Source: Deinococcales bacterium
GTDB lineage: Bacteria; Deinococcota; Deinococci; Deinococcales; JAAFIG01
Length of the DNA stretch: 18,657 bases
Direction: 5' to 3'
Assembly (NCBI GenBank): GCA_013298595.1
Contig: JAAFIG010000053.1
Coordinates: forward strand, 1-18,657
The notes beneath the pieces are model-generated. The model searched no databases and was not told where the DNA came from. It saw only the letters and a list, made by a program, of their open reading frames with translations. This document shows positions 1 through 18,605 of this stretch, piece after piece; position 1 is the first letter of the stretch; each line of letters begins with the position of its first letter. The translations under genes and the position numbers were made by a program.

Positions 1-913
1 CGCCTTGCAAGGCAGCACAAACCCGCTCTAGGATTTCGTTACCTACTCGGTCTTGGGCTTCGACAGTGTTTGCGCCGAGATGCGCGGTCATGACCACATC
101 ATCACGCCCTAACAATGGATGGTCTAAACTTGGTGGTTCGGTAATAAACACATCTATGCCCGCTGCAAACAAATGACCATCCTCGAGCGCTGCAGCAATA
201 GCAGCTTCGTTAATAATGCCGCCTCGAGCCGCATTAACAACAATGCCACCAGCGGGCATTAAGGCGATTTCTCGAGCACCGATCATATCAAAGGTCTCTT
301 CGGATAATGGCACATGGACAGTTAAAACATCGACTTGTTTGAGCATTTCCTCGAGGCTATGGGCGCGTTTGACACCGAGCAATTCAAATTTTCGATCCGA
401 GATGTACGGGTCAAACGCCATCACATTCATTTTGAAACCCATTGCCCGATTCGCTACAATCGTACCAATGCGCCCTAAACCCACAATTCCAAGGGTTTTT
501 TCTTTGACTTCACGCCCGAGATACTTTCGATCCCAGACCCCCGCCCGAATGAGTTTATCCGAACGCGCCACACCTCTGGATGCTGCCAGCATCAAGGTAA
601 TTGCCAATTCGCCAGCCGAAACAGTATTGGCTTCAGGCGCATTAAAAACCACAATACCCTTACGCGATGCTGCCTCGAGATCGATGTTATCAATGCCGAC
701 GCCGCCACGCCCAACCACTTTTAAGCGACTACCTGCCTCGAGCAACTCGGCATCCACTTTAGTTCGAGAACGGGTGATTAAACCATCAAACTCGGACAAC
801 CGCCGCAAAATGTCTTCTCGAGGCATGTTGACAACGTACTCAATCTCGAAGCCCTCACGGTCAAAGCTACTGGGGCGGAACTTCATTTCATCACAAATCA
901 GTATGCGCTGCAT
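1..913 (-). CDS. serA: D-3-phosphoglycerate dehydrogenase, 3' end cut by window edge
   Basis: This is the NAD-dependent enzyme that oxidises 3-phosphoglycerate to 3-phosphohydroxypyruvate, the first step of serine synthesis, in the cytoplasm. About 304 codons are present and the frame is still open at base 1. The translation begins MQRILICDEMKFRP. It shows the substrate-binding stretch GRGGVGIDNID (about residues 68-78), NTVSAGELA (96-104), the Rossmann loop GLGRIG (145-150), the catalytic Arg in NAARGG, the Glu in DVFITEP and the catalytic His in TAHLGANT. The D-2-hydroxyacid dehydrogenase core is therefore complete; any C-terminal ACT or intervening domain lies outside the window. The start at 913 is chosen because a TAnnnT box sits 7 nt upstream and no Shine-Dalgarno sequence is visible. 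Seven CTCGAG words lie inside. The family is clear; PGDH is favoured over other hydroxyacid dehydrogenases by the SerA-like active-site context. Confidence 0.93.
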   Translation of the reverse strand, partial: MQRILICDEMKFRPSSFDREGFEIEYVVNMPREDILRRLSEFDGLITRSRTKVDAELLEAGSRLKVVGRGGVGIDNIDLEAASRKGIVVFNAPEANTVSAGELAITLMLAASRGVARSDKLIRAGVWDRKYLGREVKEKTLGIVGLGRIGTIVANRAMGFKMNVMAFDPYISDRKFELLGVKRAHSLEEMLKQVDVLTVHVPLSEETFDMIGAREIALMPAGGIVVNAARGGIINEAAIAAALEDGHLFAAGIDVFITEPPSLDHPLLGRDDVVMTAHLGANTVEAQDRVGNEILERVCAALQG

Positions 914-920
914 CGGCAAG

Positions 921-950
921 ACTTTACCGATAAACAATCAGGAGTAACAA
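921..950 (-). promoter_or_regulatory. Putative leaderless promoter of serA
   Basis: On the minus strand TTGTTA (945-950) is followed after 18 nt by TAAAGT (921-926), and the serA ATG begins 7 nt further on. The expected transcription start is at or beside the ATG, so the mRNA would lack a ribosome binding site. This is inferred from spacing only. Confidence 0.45.
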
Positions 951-998
951 GCACCAAGCCTAGACGAATACCTCGATTGGCAAGAAACAGCTCTTGAA

Positions 999-1442
999 TT
1001 ACAGCGATCTCGTGATTTTGGTACTACGACAGGTTTTGATAAATACCTCGAGATCAGCACTCTTGCTGGGCAAATTATAGCTTTTGTACTGGCAAGCCAC
1101 GTATTTACCTGCAAATGCAGCACTGGCATTGGTTGCCACAAAACCCAGTTGCCCGCTTTTAATTTTGTACAAAATCGCCCAGAAACCTTTATCTTTGATG
1201 GTTTTATAGATTTGCTCACCACCAATCAGTACTGGAGTAGCACTCGAAACAATTTCTAAAGCAAGCGATAAGTCGCGTAAAGTAACCGAAGTGATAAAGT
1301 TATTAGCAACTTTCGCCCCCGCAGGCAAAGCTAGTTGAACTTCGTAAGAACCTCCTCCAAGTTCAGTGACTTTGGTTTGCACAGTTTGCGCTAAAGCCGT
1401 GGTTGCAAGCATCAATCCAATCAGCAATCCCAATTTTTCCAT
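999..1442 (-). CDS. Small secreted protein of unknown function
   Basis: This encodes 147 residues. The N-terminus MEKLGLLIGLMLATTALA is a typical Sec signal peptide with a likely cut after residue 18 (ALA/QT). The mature part is rich in beta-forming residues and has two cysteines (C117 and C138) that could form a disulfide outside the cytoplasm. I recognise no family. The gene starts 19 nt after the stop of the cytochrome-like gene, but it has its own perfect TATAAT placed so that transcription should begin at the ATG. Only one CTCGAG word lies inside, which is few for this window. An overlapping frame (938-1225) is open but shows no protein-like features. Function is unknown and the reading frame is fairly secure because of the signal peptide. 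Confidence 0.75.
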   Translation of the reverse strand: MEKLGLLIGLMLATTALAQTVQTKVTELGGGSYEVQLALPAGAKVANNFITSVTLRDLSLALEIVSSATPVLIGGEQIYKTIKDKGFWAILYKIKSGQLGFVATNASAAFAGKYVACQYKSYNLPSKSADLEVFIKTCRSTKITRSL

Positions 1443-1448
1443 TCAGCG

Positions 1449-1454
1449 ATTATA
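1449..1454 (-). promoter_or_regulatory. -10 box TATAAT six nt before the ATG (leaderless start)
   Basis: A consensus TATAAT on the minus strand ends 6 nt before the ATG at 1442, so the predicted transcription start is the A of the start codon. No good -35 hexamer is visible, and the box lies immediately after the stop codon of the upstream gene. Leaderless genes with TAnnnT directly upstream are well known in Deinococcus. Confidence 0.55.
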
Positions 1455-1461
1455 GCAAAAT

Positions 1462-3264
1462 TCAGTACGTCACAGCCCCAGATTTGGTCTTGAGCAACTC
1501 GAGCAAAGCTGTATCTGCGGTGGCAGTACTCGAGTGATACGCCGTGAAATGCTCTTGGATGGTGTGAATCGTGCCATATTTGATGGTACCGTTGTTGTTG
1601 CTGTCTGATAACCAACCGCGAATTGAAGTTAAATCAGCTGTGCTGTACGAGTCCTTCTCGAGCGATTCGATTTGTAAGTATGTTGCCATGCGAAAACCAT
1701 TGCCTGTCAATCTCGAGTACAGGTTGGTAGATTCGGTTTTGAGATCGGTTGGGAATTTGAGGTTTTTGCTTTCGTTCCAAGTGTTGCTGAGAATAGCTCG
1801 TCCGTAACCGATAAAGTAACTAAAATTCATAATAAATTTAATTGGTTGATAGATCACTTGTTTGTTGATAATTTTGACGTTGGCTTCGGGCAAGGTGCCT
1901 TTGCTGGCTAAGCGAATCAGCGTCATGAAGGCATTGTGGTTAAACATGCGTTCTTCTATTAAAGAGCCAACCATGTACTCCGCGACTTTGGTGGCATTTG
2001 AACCACTGATGCGAGCAAAACTCGGGTCGAACGTAAAACCAATCCAAAACCATGTTAAACGCAAGGCTTGTTCTTCGGTACCAGCAGCTCTGGCGGCATC
2101 TATGCTGTTCAAAGCAAATTCTGGGTAACCAAGTTTACGTAAATTATCGCGGAACGAACCCGTAGCCTGCGTGGACTCGAGCATGGTACGACCCATATCA
2201 CCAATTTCCCAAGGGTTCGCGGGTAAAAACTCGGTATTGCCTCGGGTTTGGGTGAATGCAAAACTGGGGTCTGTCTCGAGGTACGTAAAGGCAATCCCAT
2301 CGGCAAAAAATTCTTCTAAACGTCCAAGTGTCTCGAGCCGCATCATGTGCTGCCCTATCAAGGCTGATAAGAATTTATGGCGGTTAAAGTCATCCATTGC
2401 ACCACATGCCAGTTGCGGGTTAATGCCATCGGCAGTGCACGCGCCAAGCAATGGTACTTGGGTCATGTCTTTGGCTGCGACATACATTTTCCAAAAAGTT
2501 TGATTATTCGGATTCTCGAGGTAAGTATTTTGTAAGGCATGCCACTCGGCTTTGCGTGCTGGTTTAGCATCATGGGCAATATCGGCAATCCAATCGTTGA
2601 ATGTACCCTCGGCTGGGCTGTGATGCAAATCAGCACTCCATAATGGGTATAGCACACCAGTCGGCAATTTTCGCAAGTTCAGCATTTGTGGATTAGCACC
2701 CGCCAGATTGCTCCCTTTAACCAAATCAAGCAATTCATCTCGAGCTTTTTTGGCTTTCTCGAGGCTGTCTATGGGAGCGCCATACAGTGTTGGCAGTAAC
2801 GGCTCGAGGTTCTGAGCAAAAGCAATATCGCGTTTGACAGCGGCAATGTGTGGCGCATCGGTTAAATCAGGCAAGATTTGCGCCCCACTGGGTTGAAACG
2901 GACGAAAAGCTCGAGCATTGGTGACAGGTATTTGGTACTGCAAACGCATTTGCCCAATGGCTTGAATCAGCGCTTTGGCTTCCTGTGCCGAAGCCCCATC
3001 AATTCTGGCTCGACGCTCGAGATCAACATTGGTTGCGCCATTGCGGGCTAAATCAAAGAAATCAGCGCCGTGGCACCCCGAACAAGAACCTTTTGGATGT
3101 CGGGTCAAATCGTCGTCACGCCAGAGTTTCATTGCCATCGCCGTGGCTTCTGCGGGGCTTAATTCAACCAACGGTGGTTCAACAACTGGCTTACTGCCAC
3201 AAGCGGCTAACGTGAATGCCATAGCTGCTGCACTCGAGAGCCAAAAAATACGCAAGGGATTCAT
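1462..3264 (-). CDS. Large c-type cytochrome-like lipoprotein
   Basis: This encodes about 600 residues. The N-terminus MNPLRIFWLSSAAAMAFTLAAC carries a lipobox (LAAC, lipidated Cys22), so the protein should be anchored on the outer face of the cytoplasmic membrane. A single haem-c motif CSGCH lies at residues 61-65, soon after the anchor. The remaining 530 residues are mostly helical in appearance, have only two other noted cysteines (C276, C287) and match no cytochrome domain that I recognise. Stretches such as PLWSADLHHSPAEGTFNDW look conserved but I cannot name the family. The start at 3264 gives a normal lipoprotein signal. A GTG at 3357 would overlap the upstream stop by 4 nt (GTGA) and add 31 residues before the signal, so coupling to the upstream gene is possible. 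It carries about 14 CTCGAG words. Secretion and haem attachment are well supported; an electron-transfer or redox role is inference. Confidence 0.8.
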   Translation of the reverse strand: MNPLRIFWLSSAAAMAFTLAACGSKPVVEPPLVELSPAEATAMAMKLWRDDDLTRHPKGSCSGCHGADFFDLARNGATNVDLERRARIDGASAQEAKALIQAIGQMRLQYQIPVTNARAFRPFQPSGAQILPDLTDAPHIAAVKRDIAFAQNLEPLLPTLYGAPIDSLEKAKKARDELLDLVKGSNLAGANPQMLNLRKLPTGVLYPLWSADLHHSPAEGTFNDWIADIAHDAKPARKAEWHALQNTYLENPNNQTFWKMYVAAKDMTQVPLLGACTADGINPQLACGAMDDFNRHKFLSALIGQHMMRLETLGRLEEFFADGIAFTYLETDPSFAFTQTRGNTEFLPANPWEIGDMGRTMLESTQATGSFRDNLRKLGYPEFALNSIDAARAAGTEEQALRLTWFWIGFTFDPSFARISGSNATKVAEYMVGSLIEERMFNHNAFMTLIRLASKGTLPEANVKIINKQVIYQPIKFIMNFSYFIGYGRAILSNTWNESKNLKFPTDLKTESTNLYSRLTGNGFRMATYLQIESLEKDSYSTADLTSIRGWLSDSNNNGTIKYGTIHTIQEHFTAYHSSTATADTALLELLKTKSGAVTY

Positions 3265-3353
3265 TGGCTCGAGTATACGAAGCAATTTTTTATTGGTCTG
3301 TGAAAAACCCACCACCAAATGGTTATTTTGCTCACTGAATCTAGGCTTGCCAA

Positions 3354-4673
3354 TCACTTCATTGTGGCAACAATTTTCTTCACAAAATCAAAATCATCAA
3401 ACGAAGTTTTATACGTCATGCCAAGCCGCACCAATACCAATTCTTGCGATGGAATAATTGTGACGTTTTGCCCCTCAAAACCTTCTGCCATAAACGCATC
3501 TTGCGGAAAGGTAGCATCGTTTTTATTGACCCAAAAATGCGCCGCATACTCACCACCAGAATTGGCTGTAACGGTACTCGAGTATTTTGCCCAACCTTCA
3601 GGCAATAAACGCTCACCATTCCAAACACCATCTTGCAAATACAATTGTCCAAACTTCGCCCAATCCCTTGCCGAAGCATACATAAAACTCGAGCCAATAT
3701 ACGTGCCGCTGGCGTCAGGCTCGAGTACTGCACTGTTCATGCCCAGTTTTTTGAATAAGCGCAGGTGCGGAAAAGCCAAGTAATCGGCGTGATTCGTAAA
3801 TTGGCGGCGAATGATTTCTTGTAAAATATTACTCGTGCCACTCGAGTAAGACCAAACCGTATCTGGAGTAGCGGTCAGCGCGGAGCCAATGGCATAGGCA
3901 CCAGCGCCTTTCTTTTGAAAAAGCATTTGTGTGGCATCACTTGGCGAACCATAATCTTCAACAAATGCCAAACCACTACTCATTCGCAACAATTGATCTA
4001 AAGTGATTTCTTTACGCTTATCAGATTGCCATTCGGTAATCGGAGCAGGCTTTTTCAACTCGAGTTTACCATCCTGCACCAATAATCCAATCATCGCATT
4101 GGTCACACTTTTGGTCATACTCCAACCCAGTAATGGTGTTTTTTCGGAGTACCCAGCAGCATATTGCTCGGCAATAATTTTTCCTTTGTACATCACCACC
4201 ACAGCTCGAGTATTTAGTGGTTTGCTTGGGTCTGCATCTACAAAAAACGTATTAATAGCTGCTTGTAAAGCAGTATTTTCTGTTTTCTCGAGGGCAACAA
4301 CTGCAATTGCATTGCTTGGTTGCACACTGGGCTGAGCACGAATCTCGGCTTCCGATAATTCATTCACCAAGGTACACCCCAAACCAGCGCGATAAATGGC
4401 TGTGGTTGGTGCTAACCCAAAGACATTTGCACTAATTTTTTTGCCTGATTCATCTACGGTCGTACTGGCAAAAGACACCGCATGTAAATCTTGTTCTCGC
4501 AAAGATTCGGGTGCACGACCCGCGACAAAAACACCAGAGCACATATTTTTAGCCGCATAAGACGACGCGATATTGAGGTAAGGCATTCCCAAATACAACC
4601 CGATACCCACGCCTACTAGCAGCAGACCAAGCAGCCCAAGACCAATTTTTTTAAGCATAAGCACAGTGTACAT
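3354..4673 (-). CDS. Membrane-anchored serine hydrolase, class C beta-lactamase fold
   Basis: This encodes 439 residues. An N-terminal hydrophobic segment (about residues 10-31) should anchor the protein with its catalytic domain outside the cytoplasm. The domain has the serine nucleophile motif S185-M-T-K188 (GWSMTKSV), the second-motif Tyr in Y276-S-S, and a late GFEGQNVTIIP stretch at the place of the third motif. This arrangement fits the PF00144 family of esterases, D-aminopeptidases and 6-aminohexanoate-dimer hydrolases (NylB-like) rather than true beta-lactamases, and the substrate cannot be told from sequence. GAGCGGA 7-13 nt upstream supports the first ATG; a second ATG at codon 6 (4658) is possible. 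Its TGA overlaps a GTG of the next gene's open frame, suggesting one transcript with the haem-c lipoprotein gene. Confidence 0.87.
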   Translation of the reverse strand: MYTVLMLKKIGLGLLGLLLVGVGIGLYLGMPYLNIASSYAAKNMCSGVFVAGRAPESLREQDLHAVSFASTTVDESGKKISANVFGLAPTTAIYRAGLGCTLVNELSEAEIRAQPSVQPSNAIAVVALEKTENTALQAAINTFFVDADPSKPLNTRAVVVMYKGKIIAEQYAAGYSEKTPLLGWSMTKSVTNAMIGLLVQDGKLELKKPAPITEWQSDKRKEITLDQLLRMSSGLAFVEDYGSPSDATQMLFQKKGAGAYAIGSALTATPDTVWSYSSGTSNILQEIIRRQFTNHADYLAFPHLRLFKKLGMNSAVLEPDASGTYIGSSFMYASARDWAKFGQLYLQDGVWNGERLLPEGWAKYSSTVTANSGGEYAAHFWVNKNDATFPQDAFMAEGFEGQNVTIIPSQELVLVRLGMTYKTSFDDFDFVKKIVATMK

Positions 4674-4769
4674 GAGTCCGCTCAGTGATCGTGATGATAC
4701 TCGAGCACGCGAGACAAAAGCACACGAGATATCTGCGTAACGTGACGGAAGTTCATATCATTGGTGCTA

Positions 4770-4798
4770 TTGACATTTCCAATAAAACCTGACATTAT
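4770..4798 (+). promoter_or_regulatory. Promoter of the MarR-type gene
   Basis: TTGACA (4770-4775) is followed after exactly 17 nt by CATTAT (4793-4798). The predicted start is near 4805, leaving a leader of about 24 nt with a weak AAGGA ribosome binding site before the ATG at 4829. Confidence 0.65.
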
Positions 4799-4811
4799 TT
4801 AGGAGTCCTAA
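4799..4811. promoter_or_regulatory. Candidate autoregulatory operator of the MarR-type gene
   Basis: TTAGGAGTCCTAA is a perfect 6+1+6 palindrome directly after the -10 box and across the predicted transcription start. A MarR dimer bound here would block its own promoter, as is common in the family. Binding is inferred from position and symmetry. Confidence 0.4.
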
Positions 4812-4828
4812 GTATTAAAAGGATACCT

Positions 4829-5422
4829 ATGAACCCAAAGACTCAAAATTCAACTACCAATCTGATTATTGCACTAAACAAAATCAGTCTTGCCTTACGT
4901 AGCGAAGCCTGGAAACAAAGTAATTCAAATGGCTTAAACCCGACCCAAGCACAAATTCTTAGTCTCTTACAAAAATCCGAACCACAACGATTATCAGACA
5001 TCACTCAAGCCTTAGGGATTTCAGCCGCTAGTGCCAGCGAAAGTATCCGTACCTTAGTCAGTAAACAACTCGTGAATAAACAACCAGCCCCAGACAATGC
5101 TCGAGCCATTGCGCTAAGCCTGACAGAACAAGGACAAGAACAAGCCAAACAAAGTTCCGTCTACCCAGATTTTTTGATTCCAGCAGTTGAAGAACTCAAT
5201 ATAGACGAGCAAGCTATTTTGCTACGAAGTTTAAGCAAATTGATTCGCACCTTACTACTTAATGGGCAGATTTCCGTGGCAAGAATGTGCTACACCTGCA
5301 CTTATTTTCAAGTCAACGCACATCCAGAAAATCCAAGGCAACAACATCATTGCCAATTTCTAGATACGCCATTTGGTGATTTAGAACTTCGACTCGATTG
5401 TGCCGAACACCAACTCGCCTAA
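4829..5422 (+). CDS. MarR-family regulator with Cys/His-rich C-terminal extension
   Basis: This encodes 197 residues. Residues about 12-145 form a MarR winged-helix domain; the helix-turn-helix region is RLSDITQALGISAASASESIRTL-like (about 54-76), followed by a wing containing PAPDNARAIALSLTEQG. After residue 150 comes an extension unusual for MarR: C154-x2-C157, H173/H174, C175, then LRLDC191-x2-H194. The CxxC plus HHC plus C..H pattern suggests a bound metal ion or cluster, so the protein may sense metal or redox state. I recall similar tails in other bacterial MarR proteins, but no named function. The gene is followed on the same strand by a secreted-protein gene with a palindrome between the two, which suggests a regulator and its target. 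It contains one CTCGAG word, far below its neighbours. Confidence 0.85.
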   Translation: MNPKTQNSTTNLIIALNKISLALRSEAWKQSNSNGLNPTQAQILSLLQKSEPQRLSDITQALGISAASASESIRTLVSKQLVNKQPAPDNARAIALSLTEQGQEQAKQSSVYPDFLIPAVEELNIDEQAILLRSLSKLIRTLLLNGQISVARMCYTCTYFQVNAHPENPRQQHHCQFLDTPFGDLELRLDCAEHQLA

Positions 5423-5486
5423 TCCAAAATAACTCAACTCGAGTAACAGCGTTTACATAAAACCTGTTCAAATATTCGTTTATTCA

Positions 5487-5506
5487 AATTCAGTCATGAC
5501 CGAATT
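5487..5506. promoter_or_regulatory. Candidate MarR operator
   Basis: AATTCAGTCATGACCGAATT is a 20-bp near-perfect palindrome (one mismatched pair), the size and symmetry expected for a MarR dimer. It lies 13 nt upstream of the likely -35 of the secreted-protein gene. Its sequence differs from the palindrome in front of the MarR gene, so the two may not bind the same protein. Confidence 0.4.
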
Positions 5507-5518
5507 GGAGGTTCATTA

Positions 5519-5547
5519 TTGACAAAATAATTTGGCAACTTTAATCA
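5519..5547 (+). promoter_or_regulatory. Putative promoter of the secreted-protein gene
   Basis: TTGACA (5519-5524) is followed after 17 nt by a poor -10, TAATCA (5542-5547). The weak -10 beside a palindrome fits a regulated promoter. A good ribosome binding site, AGGAG, precedes the ATG at 5576. Confidence 0.4.
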
Positions 5548-5575
5548 AGCCCTTTCAAATCTATCAGGAGAAATT

Positions 5576-6313
5576 ATGAATCGTATTCTAGCTATAAAAT
5601 CAATCGGGGTAGTAATGGCACTTAGTTTAGGCATTGCATTTGGATTACAAGCTGCAGGAATTATTGGCAAAGAAGGCAATGCAAAAGCTGAATTTGACAT
5701 TGTACTTGCCAATGTTGTTCGCAAAAATAGTTCATTGCAGTTCACCATGAAAACCTCTGCCAAAGCAGGTATGAGTATTCCTACTGCCATAGGTAAACTT
5801 GCTGGTAGCCGAGTTTTTAGTTACGTGTGGCCCACTAATCTTGACTCGAGCGTTGTTGGGTTTGAAGAAAAACAAGGTATTTTAGCTTTAGCCGCCACAG
5901 CACATCCAGACTTTGATGATACCCCACTTTATGACGAGAACAACAACAACAATGCGAGTGATGATGGAAAACTTTGGCATTCACACTGGGTTGTACTTGT
6001 TCCAGATGATGTGTGTGGAAAAGGCGCATTGAAAGTCAAAGACATTCCAGAAGGTACAACACCTAAACTACCTGCTACATGGCCTAAATTGCCTATATTA
6101 ATTGATAGCCCTGGTTACGAACCTGGTATTTCACAATCAACTGTGACCATCAAAGTACCGCTCAAGGACTTAGGCTTTCCAAAGAACTTCCAATTTGATG
6201 GTGTCACAGCTGCACTACAAGTTAATGCAAACCTGCACGCACCACTTCTTTGCGTCACTGATGTTTTCGATATTGCATCTGGCAACTTGAGCTTACCCGG
6301 CGTAGCAAAATAA
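5576..6313 (+). CDS. Secreted protein of unknown function next to MarR-type gene
   Basis: This encodes 245 residues. MNRILAIKSIGVVMALSLGIAFGLQA is a signal peptide or anchor, with a likely cut near residue 26. The mature protein contains HPDFDDTPLYDE (110-121), an Asn/Asp-rich stretch DENNNNNASDDG (120-131) that resembles a calcium-binding loop, then LWHSHWVVLVPDD (133-145) with two closely spaced His. Two Cys (C147 and one in LLCVTD near 226) could pair. I believe this block recurs in uncharacterised secreted proteins of other bacteria, but I know no activity for it; metal binding is inference. AGGAGAAATT before the ATG supports the start. The gene has its own promoter-like sequence and a palindrome upstream, and probably belongs to the regulon of the adjacent MarR-type protein. 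Only one CTCGAG word occurs in 738 nt. Confidence 0.8.
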   Translation: MNRILAIKSIGVVMALSLGIAFGLQAAGIIGKEGNAKAEFDIVLANVVRKNSSLQFTMKTSAKAGMSIPTAIGKLAGSRVFSYVWPTNLDSSVVGFEEKQGILALAATAHPDFDDTPLYDENNNNNASDDGKLWHSHWVVLVPDDVCGKGALKVKDIPEGTTPKLPATWPKLPILIDSPGYEPGISQSTVTIKVPLKDLGFPKNFQFDGVTAALQVNANLHAPLLCVTDVFDIASGNLSLPGVAK

Positions 6314-6393
6314 AATCATCATTTCACAACAGATTTTGCCGAACCTTGGTTAGATTTTTTACCTCGAGTACATAAAGAAAACTGAACCAATCA

Positions 6394-10908: not shown

Positions 10909-11436
10909 TTATGACTTCTTGAGTACCCAGAAAATCAGTTCACCATCATCAGGGTCAAATTCGGATTCACCATTTTTAACAAAACTATTTTCCTCGAGCA
11001 CTTTTTGTGAAGCGATATTTGCAATTGCGGTTTTTGCAGTAACTCGAGTTGCATAACCAGTTTCAAAAGCCCATTTGACCAGCGCCGCTACTGCTTCTGA
11101 AGCCAAACCTTGCCCCCAATGTGAAGTGTTGATACCATATCCAATCTCAATTTCTTTGCTTTCGGTTGGAATGTTCTTAAAACCAATCGTCCCAACTGCA
11201 ATGTGATCAGATTTTAAGAACAACACGCCGCCAGGTACACTTGGTGCTCGAGTTAACGCCCGTAATTGCTCTGCCCAACTGGGAAGCAAAAATAGAATGT
11301 CAGCCGCGAATTCTGGCGGCACTCGCACCAAGCCAACACCAGCAACTTCAATAGAAAAATTGTCCGATATTACCCGCTGCTCGAGCAGCTCAGGTGGCGG
11401 ATGAGCAAACCATAAACGAGGAGTTTGAAGCATCAT
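10909..11436 (-). CDS. GNAT-family N-acetyltransferase (RimJ/RimL-like)
   Basis: This encodes 175 residues. The acetyl-CoA-binding core is IGYGINTSHWGQGLASEAVAALVKWAFE, with the Q/RxxGxA-type loop at WGQGLASEA, followed by VTAKTAIANIASQKVLEENSFVKNG, the usual Asn/Ser-rich helix near the active site. The order and length fit the RimJ/RimL (Acetyltransf_3) branch, which acetylates N-termini, amino groups of small molecules or tRNA-linked amino acids; the substrate is unknown. The start ATG overlaps the TGA of the upstream 5'-nucleotidase-like gene (ATGA), and a second ATG follows directly, so the two are translationally coupled. Confidence 0.88.
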   Translation of the reverse strand: MMLQTPRLWFAHPPPELLEQRVISDNFSIEVAGVGLVRVPPEFAADILFLLPSWAEQLRALTRAPSVPGGVLFLKSDHIAVGTIGFKNIPTESKEIEIGYGINTSHWGQGLASEAVAALVKWAFETGYATRVTAKTAIANIASQKVLEENSFVKNGESEFDPDDGELIFWVLKKS

Positions 11437-12839
11437 GTTCGTCCACTTTCAGGCATCATTCGTTTGTGTTTAAGCATGTACTTCTCGAGCACTTCGCACA
11501 TAATCACATCCACATGGTATTGCACCTCGAGCTTCCATTCGCCTTGCACCAGTCTGGTACTAAACTCGAGTTCGGCATCACTGCTGGCAACAGTGTATTT
11601 TTGCTCGAGATTGAGAGGCTTATTGCCAACAAACCATTGCCCATTTTGCAATTTCATATTCGAGATGTGTAAAACGCCACGCAAAGCTCCTCGGTAATGC
11701 TTTGGTTTCTCAGTTGCTTTTTCTTTGTCCAAACCAAGTTTTAACATCTCGAGCATTTGCCAACCAAACATGGTGGTTAGCCCAGGGTTCGCTGCGCTGG
11801 TGACACGTTCAAAGACTTCACCTCGAGTAACAATGCCTGCTTGTAATCCACTTGAAAATCCGACGGCTCCAAGCGACGCGCCAATATCTGCCTGCCAATA
11901 ATCACGTAGTGCATCGGCAAGTAAATTCCCTGCGGCGCATTCAGCACTTGGTACATGGGTTAAATCGGTTTCTAAAATGCAGAGCGGTTCGGATAACCAA
12001 GTCTCGAGTTCGTTTTCAATAGTTTGCTCGGTCTCGAGAACAATTTTTGCGGGTTGTACAGCCTCGGAAATCGCGGTGGTGCTGCAAGATTTGACCACCC
12101 AACCAGTTTCGCTTTGCTCGAGTTCAATGCGTCCTAGATGTTCGGCATAATTGCCTGTTTGCGCTACCCAAACCCGCTCGATTTTTTCGCCACTCTCGAG
12201 CAGATGGTGCGTGTGTGCACCAATAATCAAATCAATTTCGTTTTGTAATGTATGGGCTAGTATCTGGTCATTCATTTTTTCTGGGTGTGGTTCGCCGTGC
12301 TGCCAGCCTAAATGCGATAAGACAATAATCAAATCTGCACCTCGAGAACGTAAGTCCTCGGCTAGTTTTTTGACTAAGGGCACAATCTCGAGGGATTTAA
12401 GATGAAAAAAACTGGTGTAAGCATCAAATGGGTCTGTCAAACCAATCAAACCAAGTTTGACACCATCCACCTTGAGTATTCCACTTGGTTTCACACCAGC
12501 AATACTTGAGCCATCTGCCATGGTCAGATTGGCTAAAAAAAGTGGGTAGCTTGCGGTTTTGCCGTACTGCTCGAGAATAGTTTGTGAGTACCGAAGTAGA
12601 CCACCGTTTCCAACGGCAGCCGCATTGCAACCTGCTGCACTCAGTAAACGGTGCATTGCCACGCCTTTGGTTAAACTCGAGAGCCGATTATTGGTCTCTT
12701 CGATGTCGCCAGTATCAAAGTACAACACAGGATGATTGGTTTCTGCTCGAACCTGCGCGACCAGCGTGGCAACTCGAGCCAGTCCTTGAATGCGCCCGTG
12801 AATGTCGTTGGTGTGTAAAATTGTGATTCGCTTAGTCAT
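11433..12839 (-). CDS. 5'-nucleotidase/UshA-family metallophosphatase, cytoplasmic form with altered NHE motif
   Basis: This encodes 468 residues with an N-terminal metallophosphoesterase domain (1-250) and a C-terminal 5'-nucleotidase domain (about 290-460). Metal-site motifs seen are TNDIHG (10-15), DTGD (42-45), GN (77-78), SHLG (175-178) and GAHTHH (207-212). In UshA-type enzymes the third motif is NHExxD and supplies the catalytic His/Asp dyad; here it reads NGGLL (78-82), so both residues are missing while the metal ligands remain. There is no signal peptide, unlike UshA, so it is probably cytoplasmic. I believe related proteins exist in Deinococcus, but the effect on activity is unknown. 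No good ribosome binding site is seen. It carries about 15 CTCGAG words, the highest number in the window. It is followed by a GNAT gene with an ATGA overlap. Confidence 0.87.
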   Translation of the reverse strand: MTKRITILHTNDIHGRIQGLARVATLVAQVRAETNHPVLYFDTGDIEETNNRLSSLTKGVAMHRLLSAAGCNAAAVGNGGLLRYSQTILEQYGKTASYPLFLANLTMADGSSIAGVKPSGILKVDGVKLGLIGLTDPFDAYTSFFHLKSLEIVPLVKKLAEDLRSRGADLIIVLSHLGWQHGEPHPEKMNDQILAHTLQNEIDLIIGAHTHHLLESGEKIERVWVAQTGNYAEHLGRIELEQSETGWVVKSCSTTAISEAVQPAKIVLETEQTIENELETWLSEPLCILETDLTHVPSAECAAGNLLADALRDYWQADIGASLGAVGFSSGLQAGIVTRGEVFERVTSAANPGLTTMFGWQMLEMLKLGLDKEKATEKPKHYRGALRGVLHISNMKLQNGQWFVGNKPLNLEQKYTVASSDAELEFSTRLVQGEWKLEVQYHVDVIMCEVLEKYMLKHKRMMPESGRT

Positions 12840-12875
12840 TGTTTAAATTCTACTTGGGTTTAGATGAGTCGAGCC

Positions 12876-13535
12876 TCACTCGAGAAACGTCAATGCTTCC
12901 CGTAACCATTTGTGTAATGGCAGCATTTTTTTGTAACTCGAGAGCAAAAATTCTTCGAGTTCGCTCGAGGTCAGCGCTAACGCATCGAAGTTCTGACTGA
13001 CCGTAAAACTCTTGTATTTTAATAGGCTCGAGCCTTCAGGGAATCCCTTGGGAAATCTGGTCAGGATATGCTCGGTGTCTAAACCCTCGAATTGCTCGAG
13101 TAGAATTTTATTTTTGAGTAGCGCCTCGGCTTTTTTTGGGTGCTGCATCATGTAATGGCGTAATTGCAAGAGTTGTGGTGGTTCAGGTAAATAAATCCCA
13201 CCTGCCACAAACGATTCTTCGATACCAAGTTGCAAATAATAAATTGGTAAGCTCGAGTGTCGTCCGTTTGCGGCAATGGCGGCACTAAAGTGTGTCTTGT
13301 ACGGACTTTTATTGTGGCTGTAACGAATATCACGGTTGATTCTAAAAAGTGTGTCTTTGGCAATAACCCCTTTAACACTCGAGTCAAACGTTGCAATTCC
13401 AGCAATTAAACGCGTGACCAATTCGATAAATTCGAGTTTGAGAACCTGATACTCGGGTCGGTGAGCATCAAACCAGACTTTGCTATTAGAAAATTGCAAT
13501 TCGATTAAAAACTGGGTTAGTCGCTCGAGATTCAC
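12876..13535 (-). CDS. DUF2461 family protein
   Basis: This encodes 219 residues. FLIELQFSNSKVWFDAHRPEYQ near the N-terminus and DTLFRINRDIRYSHNKSPYKTHFSA (about 61-85) are the two hallmark blocks of the DUF2461/TIGR02453 family, followed by YYLQLGIEESFVAGGIYLP. Length agrees with the family (about 220 residues). Members are widespread, soluble and uncharacterised; I assign no function. The start codon is GTG at 13535 and overlaps the TGA of the upstream P-loop gene by 4 nt (GTGA), so it is translated by coupling. The start is supported by the family's N-terminus. It contains eight CTCGAG words, the first of them as codons 3-4 (Leu-Glu). Confidence 0.88.
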   Translation of the reverse strand: MNLERLTQFLIELQFSNSKVWFDAHRPEYQVLKLEFIELVTRLIAGIATFDSSVKGVIAKDTLFRINRDIRYSHNKSPYKTHFSAAIAANGRHSSLPIYYLQLGIEESFVAGGIYLPEPPQLLQLRHYMMQHPKKAEALLKNKILLEQFEGLDTEHILTRFPKGFPEGSSLLKYKSFTVSQNFDALALTSSELEEFLLSSYKKMLPLHKWLREALTFLE

Positions 13536-14134
13536 GCTGTTATCTTACGCCTTGTCTTGATTTCAGATTTTATTGCGCGTTGCTGTAGATGTCGTATGAT
13601 CGCCCGAGCAGCCTCCATCGGCTCGAGGTGCGAAATGTCTAAGCGCAGGGTATTGGGATGGTCGGTTTGAAAATTGATTTGGGCTTCAAAACGAATTCGG
13701 GCTTCTTCGGCATTGGTGCTTTTCATGCGTTCACGGCGTTCAGGACGGATGACTCGAGTTAAATACGTTTCAAGGTCGCATTCGAGTAAAACTGGGATAA
13801 GTGTGCCACCTCGAGAAGTCACGATTTTAGCAACATCATCAAATAATTGGTGGCTACCCGCATCTTCGGTCAGGTCGTTGGTAAAAATAAAATTCCAATC
13901 CTTAGGCGATAAAAACTGGATTGTACCAAGCACCGCTTGGCGGATTTCGCTTGCAAAATGCCATGTCAACGGTGGTAATGGTGTGATTCCATCATTCTTG
14001 AGTAACGAAAAAATTGGGTTCAGCACGTAATGATTATCTATGATTTTAAAATCCTCGAGTTCACTGAGGGCATTGGCAAGGCTGTACTTACCAATGCCAA
14101 AGTAACCAATTAAGTACACGAACGTATTTTCCAT
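13532..14134 (-). CDS. P-loop nucleotide-binding protein, kinase-like
   Basis: This encodes 200 residues. Residues 10-18 (GYFGIGKYS) are a Walker A loop directly after the first beta strand (TFVYLIG), as in small AAA_33-type or shikimate-kinase-like proteins. IFTNDLTE (about 83-90) is at the position of the second strand, and LLECDLETYLTRVIRPERRERMKS resembles the LID region of nucleoside or gluconate kinases (two Arg pairs). The phosphate acceptor is not known. The ATG at 14134 lies 2 nt after the leuA stop (TAAGTATG), which indicates coupling to leuA; a longer frame starting at 14206 would overlap leuA and adds nonconserved residues. Its 3' end overlaps the DUF2461 start. Confidence 0.8.
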   Translation of the reverse strand: MENTFVYLIGYFGIGKYSLANALSELEDFKIIDNHYVLNPIFSLLKNDGITPLPPLTWHFASEIRQAVLGTIQFLSPKDWNFIFTNDLTEDAGSHQLFDDVAKIVTSRGGTLIPVLLECDLETYLTRVIRPERRERMKSTNAEEARIRFEAQINFQTDHPNTLRLDISHLEPMEAARAIIRHLQQRAIKSEIKTRRKITA

Positions 14135-14136
14135 AC

Positions 14137-15672
14137 TTAAATTGCGGTCATGGCTTCTTTTTTCACACCAACATTGGCAATACTGGCATTGACTACCTCG
14201 AGCCAAGCTCTGGCACTGGATTCGACAATATCGGTGCTAACACCATTGCCGCTATACACAATCTCGCCAATACGCGCCCGAATACTTACCTCACCGAGCG
14301 CTTCGCTATTTTCGGTCACAGCTTCGATACGGTAATTCTCGAGTACAGGGTAAATGTTTGTTATGGCATTGATGGCTCGGTACACGGCATCTACTGGTCC
14401 ATCGCCACTGGCAGCGTGTTGCTTGGGACCCCCTGGAGTCTCGAGGGTGACTGTGGCAGTGGGTACGACATGGGTGCCTGATAAAACTTGGATACTCTCG
14501 AGCTTGAATACCTCTGGTATTTCGATGTCTGAGGTTTCGACTAAGGAACGAATTTCTTCGCTACCCAACGCGCCTTTGCGGTCGGCAATATCTTTAAAGC
14601 GATTAAACAGGTTTTGTACACGATCTTTATCAAAATGATAACCCAGATCCTCGAGTGCTTTGTTAAAAGCAGCTCGCCCGGAATGCTTTCCCAGCACGAG
14701 CACACCAGCTTCACGTCCAACCAATTCGGCATTCATAATTTCATACGTGGCTTTGTTTTTTAGAACACCATCTTGATGAATACCAGCTTCGTGAGCAAAG
14801 GCATTATCGCCAACTACAGCTTTATTGGGTTGCACCACCATACCAGAATGCCTCGAGACCATCCTCGAGAGACGATAAATTTCTTTGGTATTAATTTGGG
14901 TTTTGGCTTGGTAATAATCGCCTCTGGTGTAGAGCGCCATGACAATTTCCTCAAGCGATGTATTGCCAGCCCGTTCACCAATCCCATTGATGGTGCATTC
15001 AACTTGGGTTGCACCATTTTCGACAGCGGCAAGGCTATTGGCAACCGCCATACCAAGGTCATCGTGGCAATGGGTAGAAATCGCAACATTTCGGTCACGT
15101 ACAACCTCGTCGCGGATACGAGCAATCAACTGCCCATACTCGAGCGGTGTGCCGTACCCTGTGGTATCAGGAATGTTGATCGTGGTTGCCCCAGCTTCGA
15201 TTGCCACATTAAAAAGTTGAATCACATAATCAAAATCTGCTCGCATCACATCCTGAGCACTAAATTCAACATCATCGCAAAAAGTACGGGCGTAGCGAAT
15301 CATCTCGTCGCTTATCTCGAGAATTTCGGCTCGAGATTTTTTTAACATAAATTCTAAGTGCACATCCGAAGCGCTAGTAAACGTATGAATTCGCCATTTC
15401 TCGGCAACATCAAGCGCACGGGCAGCCGTTTCAATGTCTTTTTTGTGGGTTCGAGCCAAACCGCAAATATTCACACCACGAACTTCACGAGCAATTCGGT
15501 TAACACAATCAAAATCGCCTTGGGAAGTAATCGGAAAACCTGCTTCGATAATATCCACACCCATTCGCGCCAAACCATGAGCAATCTCGAGTTTTTGTGG
15601 CACAGAAAGGGCAACGCCTGGGCTTTGTTCGCCATCACGGAGGGTAGTGTCAAAAATTTTAATATGTCGCAT
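14137..15672 (-). CDS. leuA: 2-isopropylmalate synthase
   Basis: This encodes 511 residues, the normal size for bacterial LeuA. It condenses acetyl-CoA with 2-oxoisovalerate in the first committed step of leucine synthesis, in the cytoplasm. The signature [13 protein letters not shown] (7-19, metal ligand D13), the metal His pair H201-x-H203 in [28 protein letters not shown] (230-242) and HEAGIHQDG are present. The C-terminal 120 residues ([30 protein letters not shown]) form the LeuA dimer domain that binds leucine for feedback inhibition. AGGAG lies 8 nt before the ATG. Upstream on the same strand is a leucine attenuator, and an overlapping 33-codon ORF may be coupled to its start. It heads a run of five further minus-strand genes. 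Eleven CTCGAG words occur inside. Confidence 0.97.
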
Positions 15673-15760
15673 GAGTAACTCCTAGGTTGAAAGAAATAAA
15701 GAAAGTGGAAAGCAAAAAATGCTGAGATAGTCGTTCTGAATGGATGTGAATTCGATTCAT
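15659..15760 (-). CDS. Small ORF of 33 codons overlapping the leuA start
   Basis: An ATG at 15760 follows GGAGACATC, a strong ribosome binding site, and the frame ends at TAA 14 nt inside leuA. The peptide starts [17 protein letters not shown] and is rich in Phe, Leu and Ser. It begins 16 nt after the T-run of the attenuator, so it is only transcribed on read-through. It could couple translation to leuA or be an additional leader. It is too short to judge by composition. Confidence 0.35.
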
Positions 15761-15776
15761 GATGTCTCCAAACAAT

Positions 15777-15804
15777 AAAAAACCCTCGAGTATACTCGAG
15801 GGTT
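15777..15804 (-). terminator. Intrinsic terminator of the leu attenuator
   Basis: On the minus strand CCCTCGAGTATACTCGAGGG (8-bp stem, TATA loop; the palindrome extends by AA/TT to 24 nt) is followed by six T. The stem consists of two CTCGAG words head to head. It stands between the leader peptide and leuA and would end transcription unless its 5' arm is captured by the antiterminator. Confidence 0.85.
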
Positions 15805-15839
15805 GCGGTTGCAAATTCAATACTAAGCCGCGACCCTCG
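15797..15839 (-). promoter_or_regulatory. Antiterminator pairing of the leu attenuator
   Basis: The RNA segment UUCGAGGGUCGCGG, at the end of the leader-peptide frame (15828-15841), can pair with CCGCAACCCUCGAG (15795-15808), which includes the 5' arm of the terminator; 13 of 14 positions pair, counting one G-U. The two structures are mutually exclusive. A ribosome that reaches the leader stop codon covers the first segment, freeing the terminator; one stalled at the CTA codons leaves it exposed. Confidence 0.7.
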
Positions 15840-15879
15840 AAGGGTTTAGGGCTAGAAATAGCGAAACAACAGATTTCAT
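15823..15879 (-). CDS. leuL: leu leader peptide, 18 residues
   Basis: The peptide is MKSVVSLFLALNPSRVAA, ending in TAG. Its middle contains three Leu codons, all the rarely used CTA, spaced one codon apart (CTA TTT CTA GCC CTA), and it also holds two adjacent Val codons. In Salmonella and E. coli the leu leader also uses CUA-type Leu codons for sensitivity to charged tRNA-Leu. The ATG lies 8 nt after the -10 box, so translation would be leaderless or nearly so. The symbol is used by analogy of role; there is no sequence homology to enteric LeuL. Confidence 0.7.
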   Translation of the reverse strand: MKSVVSLFLALNPSRVAA

Positions 15880-15887
15880 GTACTGGT

Positions 15888-15917
15888 AGCGTAACAGGCT
15901 AACTGTATTGCTGTCAA
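15888..15917 (-). promoter_or_regulatory. Promoter of the leu leader and leuA
   Basis: On the minus strand a perfect TTGACA (15912-15917) is followed after 18 nt by TACGCT (15888-15893). Transcription should start 1-2 nt before the leader-peptide ATG. The -35 begins only 3 nt after the stop codon of the upstream lipoprotein gene. Confidence 0.65.
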
Positions 15918-15920
15918 GCG

Positions 15921-16583
15921 TTACGGGGTTGCAGCAAAATCAACTTCATCAACAAAAATCCAACGGAAATTACTGTTGCGCTCGAGTCGGATACTGATTT
16001 CAGCGCTGTTAATATCAACATCAAATGCCACGTCACCACGACGATTATCGGGCACTTCTTTACCACTGAGCTTAAAGGATTTGCCGTTGATCACAACATT
16101 TTGCGGCAAGGCAATGCCAGCGTACTCGGTGTGGCTAAAACCAATGGTGATGCGTTTAAATTGCCGAGCCTTGGTAAACTTAAAAGTCATGACAGGGTCT
16201 TTATTTAACCAACCAACCCATTCTGCTGAAGGTGCTCCTGTGACATTGGCATTATAAACATTCTGACCTCGAGTACTATCGTTTAGTTGCCGACCAGTAT
16301 CATCTATGTACGTGATATTTGAATCGGTGGCTTTATCTCCAGGCGTTGCAGTGTAAGAAGCTGGTAAAACGCTTTGTAAGGTGCCAACAGCGGCGGTGTT
16401 ATTGCTAGAACTACTCGAGTTACCAGAACTACTCGAGCTACTCGAACTACCTGAAAAACCTGTTCCATTATTATTGGCACCAGTTGGATCTTGCACAGTA
16501 CTGACGGGGGTTGGGGTGGCTGGGGCTGGTGCACAACTTAAAAATGATGTGACAAGCAAAGCTGTAACGAAAATTTTTTTCAT
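15921..16583 (-). CDS. Lipoprotein with Ser-rich linker and C-terminal beta-sandwich-like domain
   Basis: This encodes 220 residues. MKKIFVTALLVTSFLSC is a lipoprotein signal with the lipidated Cys at 17. Residues about 18-66 are low complexity, first Pro/Thr, then Gly/Ser/Asn with runs of Ser, which looks like a surface spacer. From about residue 84 a folded domain follows (YIDDTGRQLNDSTRGQNV, VGWLNKDPVMTFKF, FKRITIGFSHTEYAGIALPQNV, FRWIFVDEVDF) whose strand pattern resembles discoidin/F5-8C carbohydrate- or surface-binding domains; that fold call is inference. AGGAG precedes the ATG and directly abuts a CTCGAG word. The gene lies 63 nt after the broken GNAT gene. Two CTCGAG words and one near copy sit in the Ser linker, read as TCG AGT. 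Confidence 0.8.
   Translation of the reverse strand: MKKIFVTALLVTSFLSCAPAPATPTPVSTVQDPTGANNNGTGFSGSSSSSSSSGNSSSSSNNTAAVGTLQSVLPASYTATPGDKATDSNITYIDDTGRQLNDSTRGQNVYNANVTGAPSAEWVGWLNKDPVMTFKFTKARQFKRITIGFSHTEYAGIALPQNVVINGKSFKLSGKEVPDNRRGDVAFDVDINSAEISIRLERNSNFRWIFVDEVDFAATP
16408..16446. repeat. Short tandem repeat in the Ser-linker coding region
   Basis: GAACTACTCGAG occurs at 16408-16419 and 16426-16437, 18 nt apart, followed by a degenerate third copy ending in CTCGAA. It encodes the Ser-rich linker of the lipoprotein and probably changes length by slippage. Confidence 0.6.
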
Positions 16584-16646
16584 AATTTGTTCTCCTCGAG
16601 AAAAGTCTACACGAGAAAATTAAATGATTTCTTAGTAATGCGTGAT

Positions 16647-17183
16647 TTATTGCACGTTCATAACATCTGAACGCAAAATACTGTAATAAATCACATCTTG
16701 AGGTAGACCATTTTTCTGAACATAACCACGTAACAAACCTTCGTACTGCATTCCAATGGCTAAAAGAATGCGTCCACTCGCGGGATTGCTTGGAAAATGA
16801 CAAGCCTGCACTCGGTGCAAGTCCATATTTGAAAAAACGTATTCAATCAGTGCTCGAGTGGCTTCTTTCATAAACCCTTGACCTCTGTACGGCTGACCAC
16901 ACCAGTACCCTAATTCACCTCGAGCATGTTTGGTCTCGAATCCGATACCACAATCAGCAATAATCTCGAGCGTATCCTTTAAGCACACAGCAAAACTTAG
17001 ATGTTTACCAGCTACATTCGCTTGGATCATCTGCTCGACTCGAGTTTGTGCCTAACCAATAGGTTGAGGATAAGGATAGGATAAAGTGAAGGCAGCAATA
17101 TCAGCTTCATTAGAAAGCTTGGCAAAACGAGGTATATCCTCAAGTCTCCAAGGGCGAAGTAGTAACCGAGGTGTTTCAATCAT
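16647..17183 (-). pseudogene. GNAT-family acetyltransferase gene interrupted by an in-frame TAG
   Basis: One continuous frame of 179 codons runs from ATG 17183 to the stop at 16647, with a single TAG at codon 44 (17052-17054). Before it the translation is MIETPRLLLRPWRLEDIPRF and on to a YPQPIG-like stretch, the classic RimJ/RimL N-terminus; after it comes AQTRVEQMIQANVAGKHLSFAV, then ELGYWCGQPYRGQGFMKEATRALIEYVF, with the acetyl-CoA loop QPYRGQGF, and a normal C-terminus. Together they form one complete acetyltransferase, so a point change (for example GAG to TAG) is the simplest explanation. A good GGAG site precedes the ATG. Re-initiation at ATG 17030 would give 127 residues without the first strand and helices. 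Apart from the stop, the frame is intact, so the change is recent, a sequencing error, or readthrough is used. Confidence 0.85.
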
Positions 17184-17202
17184 GGCTGCTCCAAAAGGAA
17201 TT

Positions 17203-17748
17203 ATGGCTGAAAAAATTCGAGTACAATACGAAAATCTTGGTGTAACAGGTTTTTATCAAACGCACGGAGCCACTTATCGTAACCCGCACGAAAAACAAAT
17301 TCACGCTTTACTTGTGCAATTAGCAACCCAATTGAACTTCTCGAGTGTACTGGATTTAGCTTGTGGTAGTGGTGAAGTTAGCAGCAAAATCCTCGAATTA
17401 GGTGGTAATATATCGGGTATTGACCCATACACTGCCGATGCGTACCATCAGCGCTTAGGCTTAACAGCCGAAGCTATCAGTTTTGAAGATATTGCCAATG
17501 GTGCTTTGGTTGGACGACATTATAGTCTAGTGATTTGTAGTTTTGCTTTGCATTTAGCGGACACCTCGAGATTGCCACTGATTTGTTACCACCTAGCTAA
17601 TATCAGCCCTCAGTTACTGATTTTAACACCACACAAACGCCCAAGTATCAAACCGGAATGGGGTTGGCAGCTCGAGACAGAAACACATTTTGAACGGGTT
17701 AAAGCTCGAGTTTATAAATCGGTGTATCAAGAAGTTACAGAACTTTGA
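17203..17748 (+). CDS. Class I SAM-dependent methyltransferase
   Basis: This encodes 181 residues. Motif I is VLDLACGSGEVSSKILELGG, the SAM-binding loop (about residues 50-69), followed by GIDPYTADAY in place of motif II and YSLVICSFALHL as motif IV. The substrate is unknown. It has no DPPY/NPPY or PCQ motif, so it is not a DNA methyltransferase of the usual types. The start at 17203 is chosen because AAAAGGAATT directly precedes it and family-like sequence begins there (MAEKIRVQYENLGVTGFYQTHG); an ATG at 17182 and the frame back to 17086 run antisense through the GNAT gene. Divergent from that gene with 19 bp between, so their promoters must overlap each other's 5' ends. Its 3' end overlaps the VOC gene tail to tail by 14 nt. 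Confidence 0.85.
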   Translation: MAEKIRVQYENLGVTGFYQTHGATYRNPHEKQIHALLVQLATQLNFSSVLDLACGSGEVSSKILELGGNISGIDPYTADAYHQRLGLTAEAISFEDIANGALVGRHYSLVICSFALHLADTSRLPLICYHLANISPQLLILTPHKRPSIKPEWGWQLETETHFERVKARVYKSVYQEVTEL

Positions 17749-18409
17749 AGTAGTAAGGAAAATTCAAATATGTTACTTCGAGCGGTGCTTTTCCCTCGAG
17801 AATGATTTTCACAAAGTGCGGTTGAGCTTGGATGTTGGTGTTTGGATACCATTCCCTACCAATCGAGGCAGCAATAATTAAACCGTGAGCATCACCAATG
17901 GGTGTAAAACTGCTCGAGCCTTGGCGGTATTTCGAGATTTTGAGGTTCACCTCTGCCCAGTCTGCGAAATCTGCGGCGTTGGGTACTGCCAAACCAATTT
18001 CGCAGATGTTGAGAATGCTGCTCGAGTCAAACGGTGTTATTGCATCGTGTTTCAGTTCGTGCCGAGCAATTAACTCGAGGATATTGCCCGCTGGGTCATA
18101 AAAATAGACTTGATTGGCATTCCAATTGGCTGTGTGAAAATGTGTTTCGCCCAATTCATCTTTGACCAATTCAGCCCGATTTTCTAACCAAGTAGTAGCC
18201 TCGAGAAACTGCTGCTCTGGAATGTTAAAAGCAAAATGATACTTGGCTGTGCTGTTTGGCTCGAGATGAAAATGCAATTTGCTCGAGCCAATTTGAAAAA
18301 CCACGTGCGAATTTGTTTGCTCGAGCATTGGAACGCTGAGCACTTGGGAATAGAACTGCACTTGCTCGAGTAAGTTTGGGCATTGCAAGTGCAGTTCTAC
18401 AATCTTCAT
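17735..18409 (-). CDS. VOC superfamily (glyoxalase/dioxygenase-like) protein
   Basis: This encodes 224 residues. The first half is a full VOC module: VELHLQCPNLLEQVQFYSQVLSVPM at the N-terminus, YHFAFNI in the middle and VYFYDPAGNILELIARHE at its end. H7, H58 and E112 are in the positions of the usual metal triad. Residues about 125-224 form a second, weaker half beginning ICEIGLAVPNAADFADW. Members include lyases, dioxygenases and resistance proteins; the substrate cannot be predicted. CGAGGATTAA before the ATG supplies a ribosome binding site made partly from a CTCGAG word. Nine CTCGAG words occur in 675 nt, most of them as Leu-Glu codon pairs. Confidence 0.87.
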   Translation of the reverse strand: MKIVELHLQCPNLLEQVQFYSQVLSVPMLEQTNSHVVFQIGSSKLHFHLEPNSTAKYHFAFNIPEQQFLEATTWLENRAELVKDELGETHFHTANWNANQVYFYDPAGNILELIARHELKHDAITPFDSSSILNICEIGLAVPNAADFADWAEVNLKISKYRQGSSSFTPIGDAHGLIIAASIGREWYPNTNIQAQPHFVKIILEGKAPLEVTYLNFPYYFKVL

Positions 18410-18468
18410 TTAATCCTCGAGTTTGAGTTAGGCATATTAACGATTGAATGATGAAAAGTACTTGAGTG

Positions 18469-18474
18469 ATTATA
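18469..18474 (-). promoter_or_regulatory. -10 box TATAAT of the VOC gene
   Basis: A perfect TATAAT lies on the minus strand about 60 nt before the VOC start codon. No convincing -35 is visible at 16-18 nt. The rest of the 248-bp region to the window edge shows no gene that I can support. Confidence 0.4.
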
Positions 18475-18543
18475 CCTGCAAAAGCTTACACGTTTTTGAC
18501 ACTCGACAAAATCCAAGTTGTGATCAACGCAGATGAGAGTTTT

Positions 18544-18561
18544 ATTCCCCAACATTCCCCA
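18544..18561. repeat. Two direct copies of ATTCCCCA at 10-nt period
   Basis: ATTCCCCA occurs at 18544-18551 and 18554-18561, one helical turn apart, between two divergently pointing TATAAT boxes. It may be a binding site; the evidence is only the repeat and its place. Confidence 0.25.
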
Positions 18562-18605
18562 GTGATGTTTGATAATGCTGCCTGCTCGAGGTTGGGTCGC
18601 TCGAG

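Follow-up and report, generated by a model that had tools for sequence, protein, structure and literature searches.

CTCGAG is a highly iterated palindrome (HIP) of a Deinococcota lineage. We examined it in an 18,657-nucleotide stretch of a Deinococcales bacterium (assembly GCA_013298595.1, contig JAAFIG010000053.1; the window) and then across the genome and its relatives. The window carries 133 exact copies where base composition predicts 3.6 (37-fold), and the second-commonest palindrome, TTGCAA, has 15. The preliminary description of the window had put the number at about 133 by eye, which is exact. The sites are as follows.

Positions 182..18605, no strand assigned: CTCGAG, 133 copies, mean spacing 140 bp.
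CTCGAG starts, first part: 182, 223, 271, 350, 674, 737, 817, 1047, 1498, 1529, 1657, 1712, 2176, 2275, 2332, 2515, 2739, 2758, 2803, 2910, 3016, 3233, 3268, 3577, 3688, 3720, 3841, 4059, 4205, 4287, 4700, 5100, 5438, 5845, 6363, 6510, 6608, 6722, 6793, 6923, 7037, 7306, 7346, 7369, 7429.
CTCGAG starts, second part: 7575, 7675, 7900, 8161, 8314, 8380, 8405, 8747, 8794, 9317, 9356, 9513, 9772, 10089, 10247, 10338, 10672, 10746, 10833, 10993, 11043, 11247, 11380, 11484, 11526, 11565, 11604, 11748, 11822, 12003, 12033, 12117, 12195, 12341, 12387, 12570, 12676, 12773, 12879, 12937, 12964, 13027, 13095, 13252, 13378.
CTCGAG starts, third part: 13524, 13622, 13753, 13810, 14054, 14197, 14338, 14440, 14497, 14650, 14852, 14864, 15139, 15316, 15330, 15586, 15785, 15795, 15981, 16268, 16414, 16432, 16595, 16853, 16919, 16965, 17039, 17340, 17565, 17671, 17705, 17795, 17913, 18021, 18074, 18200, 18260, 18282, 18320, 18365, 18416, 18585, 18600.

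The excess is genome-wide and not confined to the window. The genome to which the window belongs (G000; 4,582,226 bases, 4.58 Mb, in 68 contigs, 94% complete) contains 27,159 copies, one per 169 bp; GAGCTC, the same word reversed, occurs 15 times in the whole genome. Here and below, copy totals are based on whole genomes and statistics on sampled sequence stretches. A 418,657-base sample of G000 holds 2,434 copies against 82 expected from composition, and this 29.6-fold ratio matches the roughly 30-fold excess proposed earlier. Over 400 kb the excess is 53-fold relative to a first-order Markov model; a maximum-order model was not used as the null because the CTCGAG sites themselves inflate its 5-mers. 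Outside the window coding DNA (5.4–5.9 per kb) and non-coding DNA (5.9–6.4 per kb) are about equally rich in sites. The hexamer is not part of a longer repeat unit and its flank preferences are only mild, which bears out the earlier statement that it is independent of gene family, strand and repeat unit. Two genes of the window serve as examples.

Positions 11433..12839, minus strand: 5'-nucleotidase/metallophosphatase-like gene, 468 aa, a site-dense example with 15 CTCGAG inside the open reading frame.
Positions 14137..15672, minus strand: 2-isopropylmalate synthase (leuA), a conserved housekeeping gene with sites, 68–69% identical to Calidithermus/Meiothermus.

The identity of the synthase suggests that G000 lies near Thermaceae within Deinococcota.

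Specificity for the hexamer is all-or-none. In the window the one-mismatch neighbours of CTCGAG were seen 66 times against 69 expected, so the depletion that the preliminary description had suggested looking for is absent, and as a class they are not enriched either. In G000 they range from 0.3 to 1.8 of first-order Markov expectation, and in the 418,657-base sample CTCGAG alone outnumbers all 18 of them combined (about 1,220). The only clearly raised neighbours in that sample are C-to-T variants, TTCGAG (1.6-fold) and CTTGAG (1.45-fold). Since the one-off neighbours lie near background, it is the intact hexamer that is recognised.

We compared 111 Deinococcota genomes, all in one order, whose genus and family labels are given by analogy. 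The four genomes of the window's family (G000–G003, 91–94% complete, G001 being of the same genus as G000) contain 5.9–6.5 CTCGAG per kb, 19–29 times the expectation from composition in each. Agreement between four independent draft assemblies excludes an assembly or cloning artefact. A second small family comprises one genus at 6.2–7.7 per kb, one at 3.6 and one at 0.3. A Meiothermus-like genus has 1.4–3.1 per kb, with no significant relation between genome size and density, and a Thermus-like genus is near background at about 0.8. Among named genomes of many phyla (71 stretches) the median CTCGAG ratio is 0.5 and the maximum, in Calidithermus chliarophilus, is 11.9. Strain DSM 9957 of this species, a cultivable carrier of moderate density, shows 4.0 sites per kb over a 21.5-kb stretch. 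Of the viral contigs with most CTCGAG, the best inspected among the matches listed are mostly G+C-rich.

Orthologous sites are strongly conserved. The comparison proposed in the preliminary description was made between G000 and G001, where 142 of 201 CTCGAG sites (71%) are identical over 35 kb aligned at 76.7% identity, while the mean hexamer conservation in the same alignment is 22.5%. CTCGAG is the best-conserved hexamer among those with at least 25 aligned copies, and it is kept in all three reading frames (92/120, 24/36 and 25/46). Gains and losses both occur, and only 9 of the 59 G000 sites not shared by G001 differ by one base. At positions that code for Leu-Glu in both genomes, CTCGAG is retained at 92 of 105 G000 sites, although a conserved Leu keeps the same codon in just 396 of 1052 cases (38%).

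CTCGAG is actively maintained and overrides protein sequence. Leu-Glu, the dipeptide written CTC GAG, occurs at 2.28, 2.40, 2.68 and 2.46 times expectation in the four family genomes, with the Glu-Leu control at 0.93–1.07; in the low-density genomes G004 and G007 the Leu-Glu value is 1.08. In the G000 sample 1,163 of 1,800 Leu-Glu pairs are written CTCGAG. Such sites account for about half of the CTC codons and about half of the GAG codons in the sampled genes. The odds relative to single synonymous changes correspond to a scaled strength of 2.5–4.1 per site across the four genomes. The force is thus weak per site and strong in sum.

Neighbouring sites exclude each other at short range. Pooled over the family, the density of CTCGAG pairs falls to 0.30 of expectation at 6–12 bp and 0.50 at 12–18 bp, while inverted repeats of like G+C content reach 0.69 and 0.88 and direct repeats show no drop. 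The same is seen in synonymous choice: with another site less than 15 bp away, 25% of the Leu-Glu pairs of G000 use CTCGAG, and the share is about 50–62% at 15–60 bp and about 74% beyond 60 bp. The effect under 15 bp is present in all four family genomes, and short-range exclusion is visible in pair density in G012 and G016. G025 and G006, in which codon choice plays a larger part, show no such effect or its reverse. In the pooled G000–G003 stretches a start-to-start spacing of 7 bp occurs 32 times, against 7–22 times for each spacing from 8 to 13. Copies never start 6 bp apart, an arrangement that would generate GAGCTC.

The high-density genomes G000–G003 strongly avoid nearly all other 6-bp palindromes, with median first-order ratios of 0.14–0.41 compared with 0.89–0.92 for non-palindromic words. 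The avoidance is far weaker in low-density relatives (0.59–0.99). In G000 the ratio is 0.015 for GGCC and 0.08 for CCGG. Palindromes two changes away from CTCGAG are not particularly avoided (p=0.07–0.32, not significant). This purge is a further pattern to be explained jointly with the CTCGAG excess.

CTCGAG is absent from acquired islands. The largest gaps in G000 coincide with recently acquired, AT-rich DNA of 31–34% G+C, for example:

Around G000:C34:70,600-83,400: CTCGAG-poor, AT-rich polysaccharide-synthesis cluster.
G000:C66:77,588-81,146: CTCGAG-poor, AT-rich HEPN/GmrSD/methyltransferase defence island.

The hexamer therefore accumulates slowly and marks resident DNA.

We tentatively favour selection for occupancy of CTCGAG by a putative resident, sequence-specific DNA-binding factor. 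A weak, pervasive force, equivalent to scaled selection of about 2.5–4 per site in the synonymous comparisons, would act on the intact hexamer throughout the resident chromosome. The reader may be a nucleoid-organising, repair or self-marking factor with a footprint of about 15–25 bp. A second site within that footprint would add nothing, hence the short-range exclusion. A protein that occupies a short stretch around the site predicts such exclusion, and independent mutational events do not. We infer that selection, not biased repair, is the force and that a binding protein reads the hexamer. It is conceivable, if somewhat doubtful, that CTCGAG is a methylation-independent mark read by protein every 170 bp along the chromosome, either a nucleoid code or a label of self versus foreign DNA, with nearly all other palindromes purged and with selection for the site strong enough to raise one dipeptide more than twofold across the proteome.

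Several points weigh against a binding factor. The shoulder at 25–60 bp is clear in G000 only. Avoidance of short hairpins could explain part of the exclusion. The CTCGAG spacings show a 3-bp coding period only, and no helical phasing was found. Comparable conservation would also follow from biased repair or gene conversion if the reader were all-or-none. The binding protein itself is a guess. Finally, an unrecognised cognate methyltransferase is possible, given genomes 91–94% complete and a search covering five families and two specific proteins.

Such an enzyme is at the centre of a close rival. A solitary methyltransferase, coupled to methyl-dependent mismatch repair as in Elhai's model of cyanobacterial HIPs, would turn near-sites into CTCGAG and protect them. 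We consider this possible but rather doubtful. For HIP1 and three alternate HIPs of cyanobacteria a matching methyltransferase has been described by Elhai in 2015 (PMC4390886), and the restriction of raised CTCGAG neighbours to C-to-T variants fits methylation. Elhai's model, however, saturates at about one site per 1,000 nt, and here there is one per 170.

The preliminary description had predicted a solitary enzyme resembling M.XhoI. That the window belongs to a genome-wide highly iterated palindrome stood; the link to such an enzyme was not supported. No methyltransferase of Pfam families PF07669, PF01555, PF00145, PF02086 and PF02384, which cover most DNA methyltransferases, was found in common among G000–G003 and G012 after clustering and comparison of matches. 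Weak PF01555 matches, about one per genome, were considered as a shared orthologue and rejected, as they proved unrelated. With a query protein from a P. aeruginosa plasmid, where its gene adjoins that of the endonuclease, no PaeR7I-type methyltransferase was detected at E<=1e-8 in G000, G001, G003, G008 or G016, and G002 has only a relative of 28% identity. Most of the genomes richest in CTCGAG thus lack a methyltransferase of XhoI/PaeR7I type. The XhoI nuclease (PF04555) was not found in G000–G003, G012 or G008.

G000 has one solitary 5-methylcytosine (m5C) methyltransferase.

G000:C15, L131:7908-9038, plus strand: solitary m5C methyltransferase, adjoining an RNA-methyltransferase-like gene.

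It resembles HpaII-type enzymes, and its nearest plasmid relative, on a Lactococcus plasmid, has a nuclease of the HpaII family as neighbour. This suggests CCGG as the target, so the enzyme is probably CCGG-specific. It is conserved in G001, G012 and G105, and its orthologue is missing from G002 and G003. We rejected it as the cognate CTCGAG methylase on both counts. A different cytosine-5 methyltransferase in G003 (C40:29451-31355, stretch L075) seems to have an insertion resembling an intein at its catalytic Pro-Cys motif, from ...SLPCFVAGTLVLTIDG... to ...VHNCQPWS....

Enzymes of the expected type do occur in cultivable relatives. Several Meiothermus-like and related genomes encode PaeR7I-type methyltransferases, those of some Meiothermus-like genomes being 67–69% identical over the full length. 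In G037, G073, G025 and G064 a PaeR7I/XhoI-type methyltransferase is present and no XhoI nuclease gene was found (stretches L302–L306, together with G009). These are candidates for solitary CTCGAG methylases, and the occurrence of such enzymes in some Meiothermus-like genomes of moderate density speaks for methylation. The Meiothermus-like carriers, however, have only 2–3 CTCGAG per kb, and density does not detectably depend on the enzyme within the genus (2.2–2.4 per kb with it, median 2.0 without; p=0.15, three carriers counted). In G009 (C1:1095688-1096226; L125, L126) an XhoI-family nuclease broken by in-frame stops adjoins an intact PaeR7I-type methyltransferase, apparently a restriction system decaying to a solitary methylase.

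Apart from this broken copy, the XhoI nuclease was found within the order in three genomes of one genus (G018, G042 and G048). In these the XhoI-family nuclease (C8 of G048; stretches L124 and L127) is paired with a TSPPYW-type methyltransferase and not with one of PaeR7I type. CTCGAG is rarer in the three than in their congeners (0.7–1.0 versus 1.7–2.0 per kb), a 2- to 3-fold reduction that supports CTCGAG as the target and reflects ordinary restriction avoidance.

A neutral mutational or gene-conversion bias that continually creates CTCGAG without function is unlikely. It would account for a weak force that is uniform across genome compartments and for the gains and losses between G000 and G001. 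As the sole cause, mutational bias is disfavoured by the orthologous conservation, in which 71% of sites are kept at 77% identity and only 9 of 59 unshared sites differ by one base, and by the exclusion below 15 bp, which is not expected of independent events. Because all six positions matter, any such bias would need to be specific for the complete hexamer.

DNA uptake or self-recognition, in which cells preferentially import CTCGAG-rich DNA, or a nuclease spares it, and a molecular drive results, is very unlikely, although the earlier suggestion of biased uptake keeps this small chance. Thermus and similar relatives are naturally competent, and recently acquired islands without CTCGAG agree with a mark of resident DNA. 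Uptake predicts neither the density nor the short-range exclusion, and redundancy is lost only within tens of base pairs rather than at the scale of fragments. Uptake sequences in H. influenzae and Neisseria occur about once per kb, and CTCGAG is six times denser. Those of Pasteurellaceae and Neisseriaceae are likewise short words over-represented genome-wide, but they are non-palindromic and occur at a several-fold lower density. Known uptake sequences are longer and carry a flanking consensus (PMC1939737), whereas CTCGAG is palindromic and has no strong flank preference.

Codon usage alone, with Leu-Glu common and CTC and GAG preferred, accounts for a good part of the excess in G+C-rich relatives (G006, Calidithermus), where frame 0 holds most of the sites and these exceed codon expectation only about 2-fold, but is refuted for the high-density genomes. 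In G000 CTC and GAG are minority codons, CTCGAG at Leu-Glu is 38-fold over codon use outside Leu-Glu, and sites occur in all three frames and equally densely in non-coding DNA.

The closest parallel is HIP1 (GCGATCGC) of cyanobacteria. Both are short, perfect palindromes in tens-fold excess genome-wide, in coding and non-coding DNA, and each is widespread in a single lineage, some members of which have lost it. The word and the phylum differ, supporting the earlier view that CTCGAG is a separate instance, and CTCGAG is denser at 5.9 per kb, compared with roughly 0.5–2.5 for cyanobacterial HIPs (PMC4390886). HIP1 is associated with methyltransferases for GATC and CGATCG; for CTCGAG the search revealed no cognate enzyme common to the genomes. 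A matching methyltransferase is the key feature of HIPs according to Elhai (PMC4390886), and by that feature the membership of CTCGAG is unproven. Among the alternate cyanobacterial HIPs (GGCGCC in Calothrix PCC 7103, GCSGC and RCCGGY) another palindrome likewise replaces HIP1, but these are scattered cases that follow the recent gain of a methyltransferase, while CTCGAG is common to an entire family and extends to others in the order. Xu, Lawrence and Durand reportedly proposed a selection-based reading of HIP1 (Nucleic Acids Research, 2018). XhoI/PaeR7I restriction-modification shares the recognition word CTCGAG, but its nuclease family was not found in G000–G003, and within the order an intact nuclease goes with rarer sites, the opposite of a HIP. 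In the open-licence literature we found no paper joining highly iterated palindromes with Meiothermus, or a CTCGAG excess with Thermus.

Why HIP1 exists has been a standing question for decades. It can now be tested outside cyanobacteria, since another phylum has a second HIP that is independent and denser, in a graded series within one order that runs from 0.3 to nearly 8 CTCGAG per kb and includes several genera with cultivated members. CTCGAG could also help to date acquired DNA. Any general theory of HIPs has three constraints to satisfy, namely exclusion at short range, an altered proteome and a methyltransferase that is missing, and these argue against the simplest methylation-repair account.

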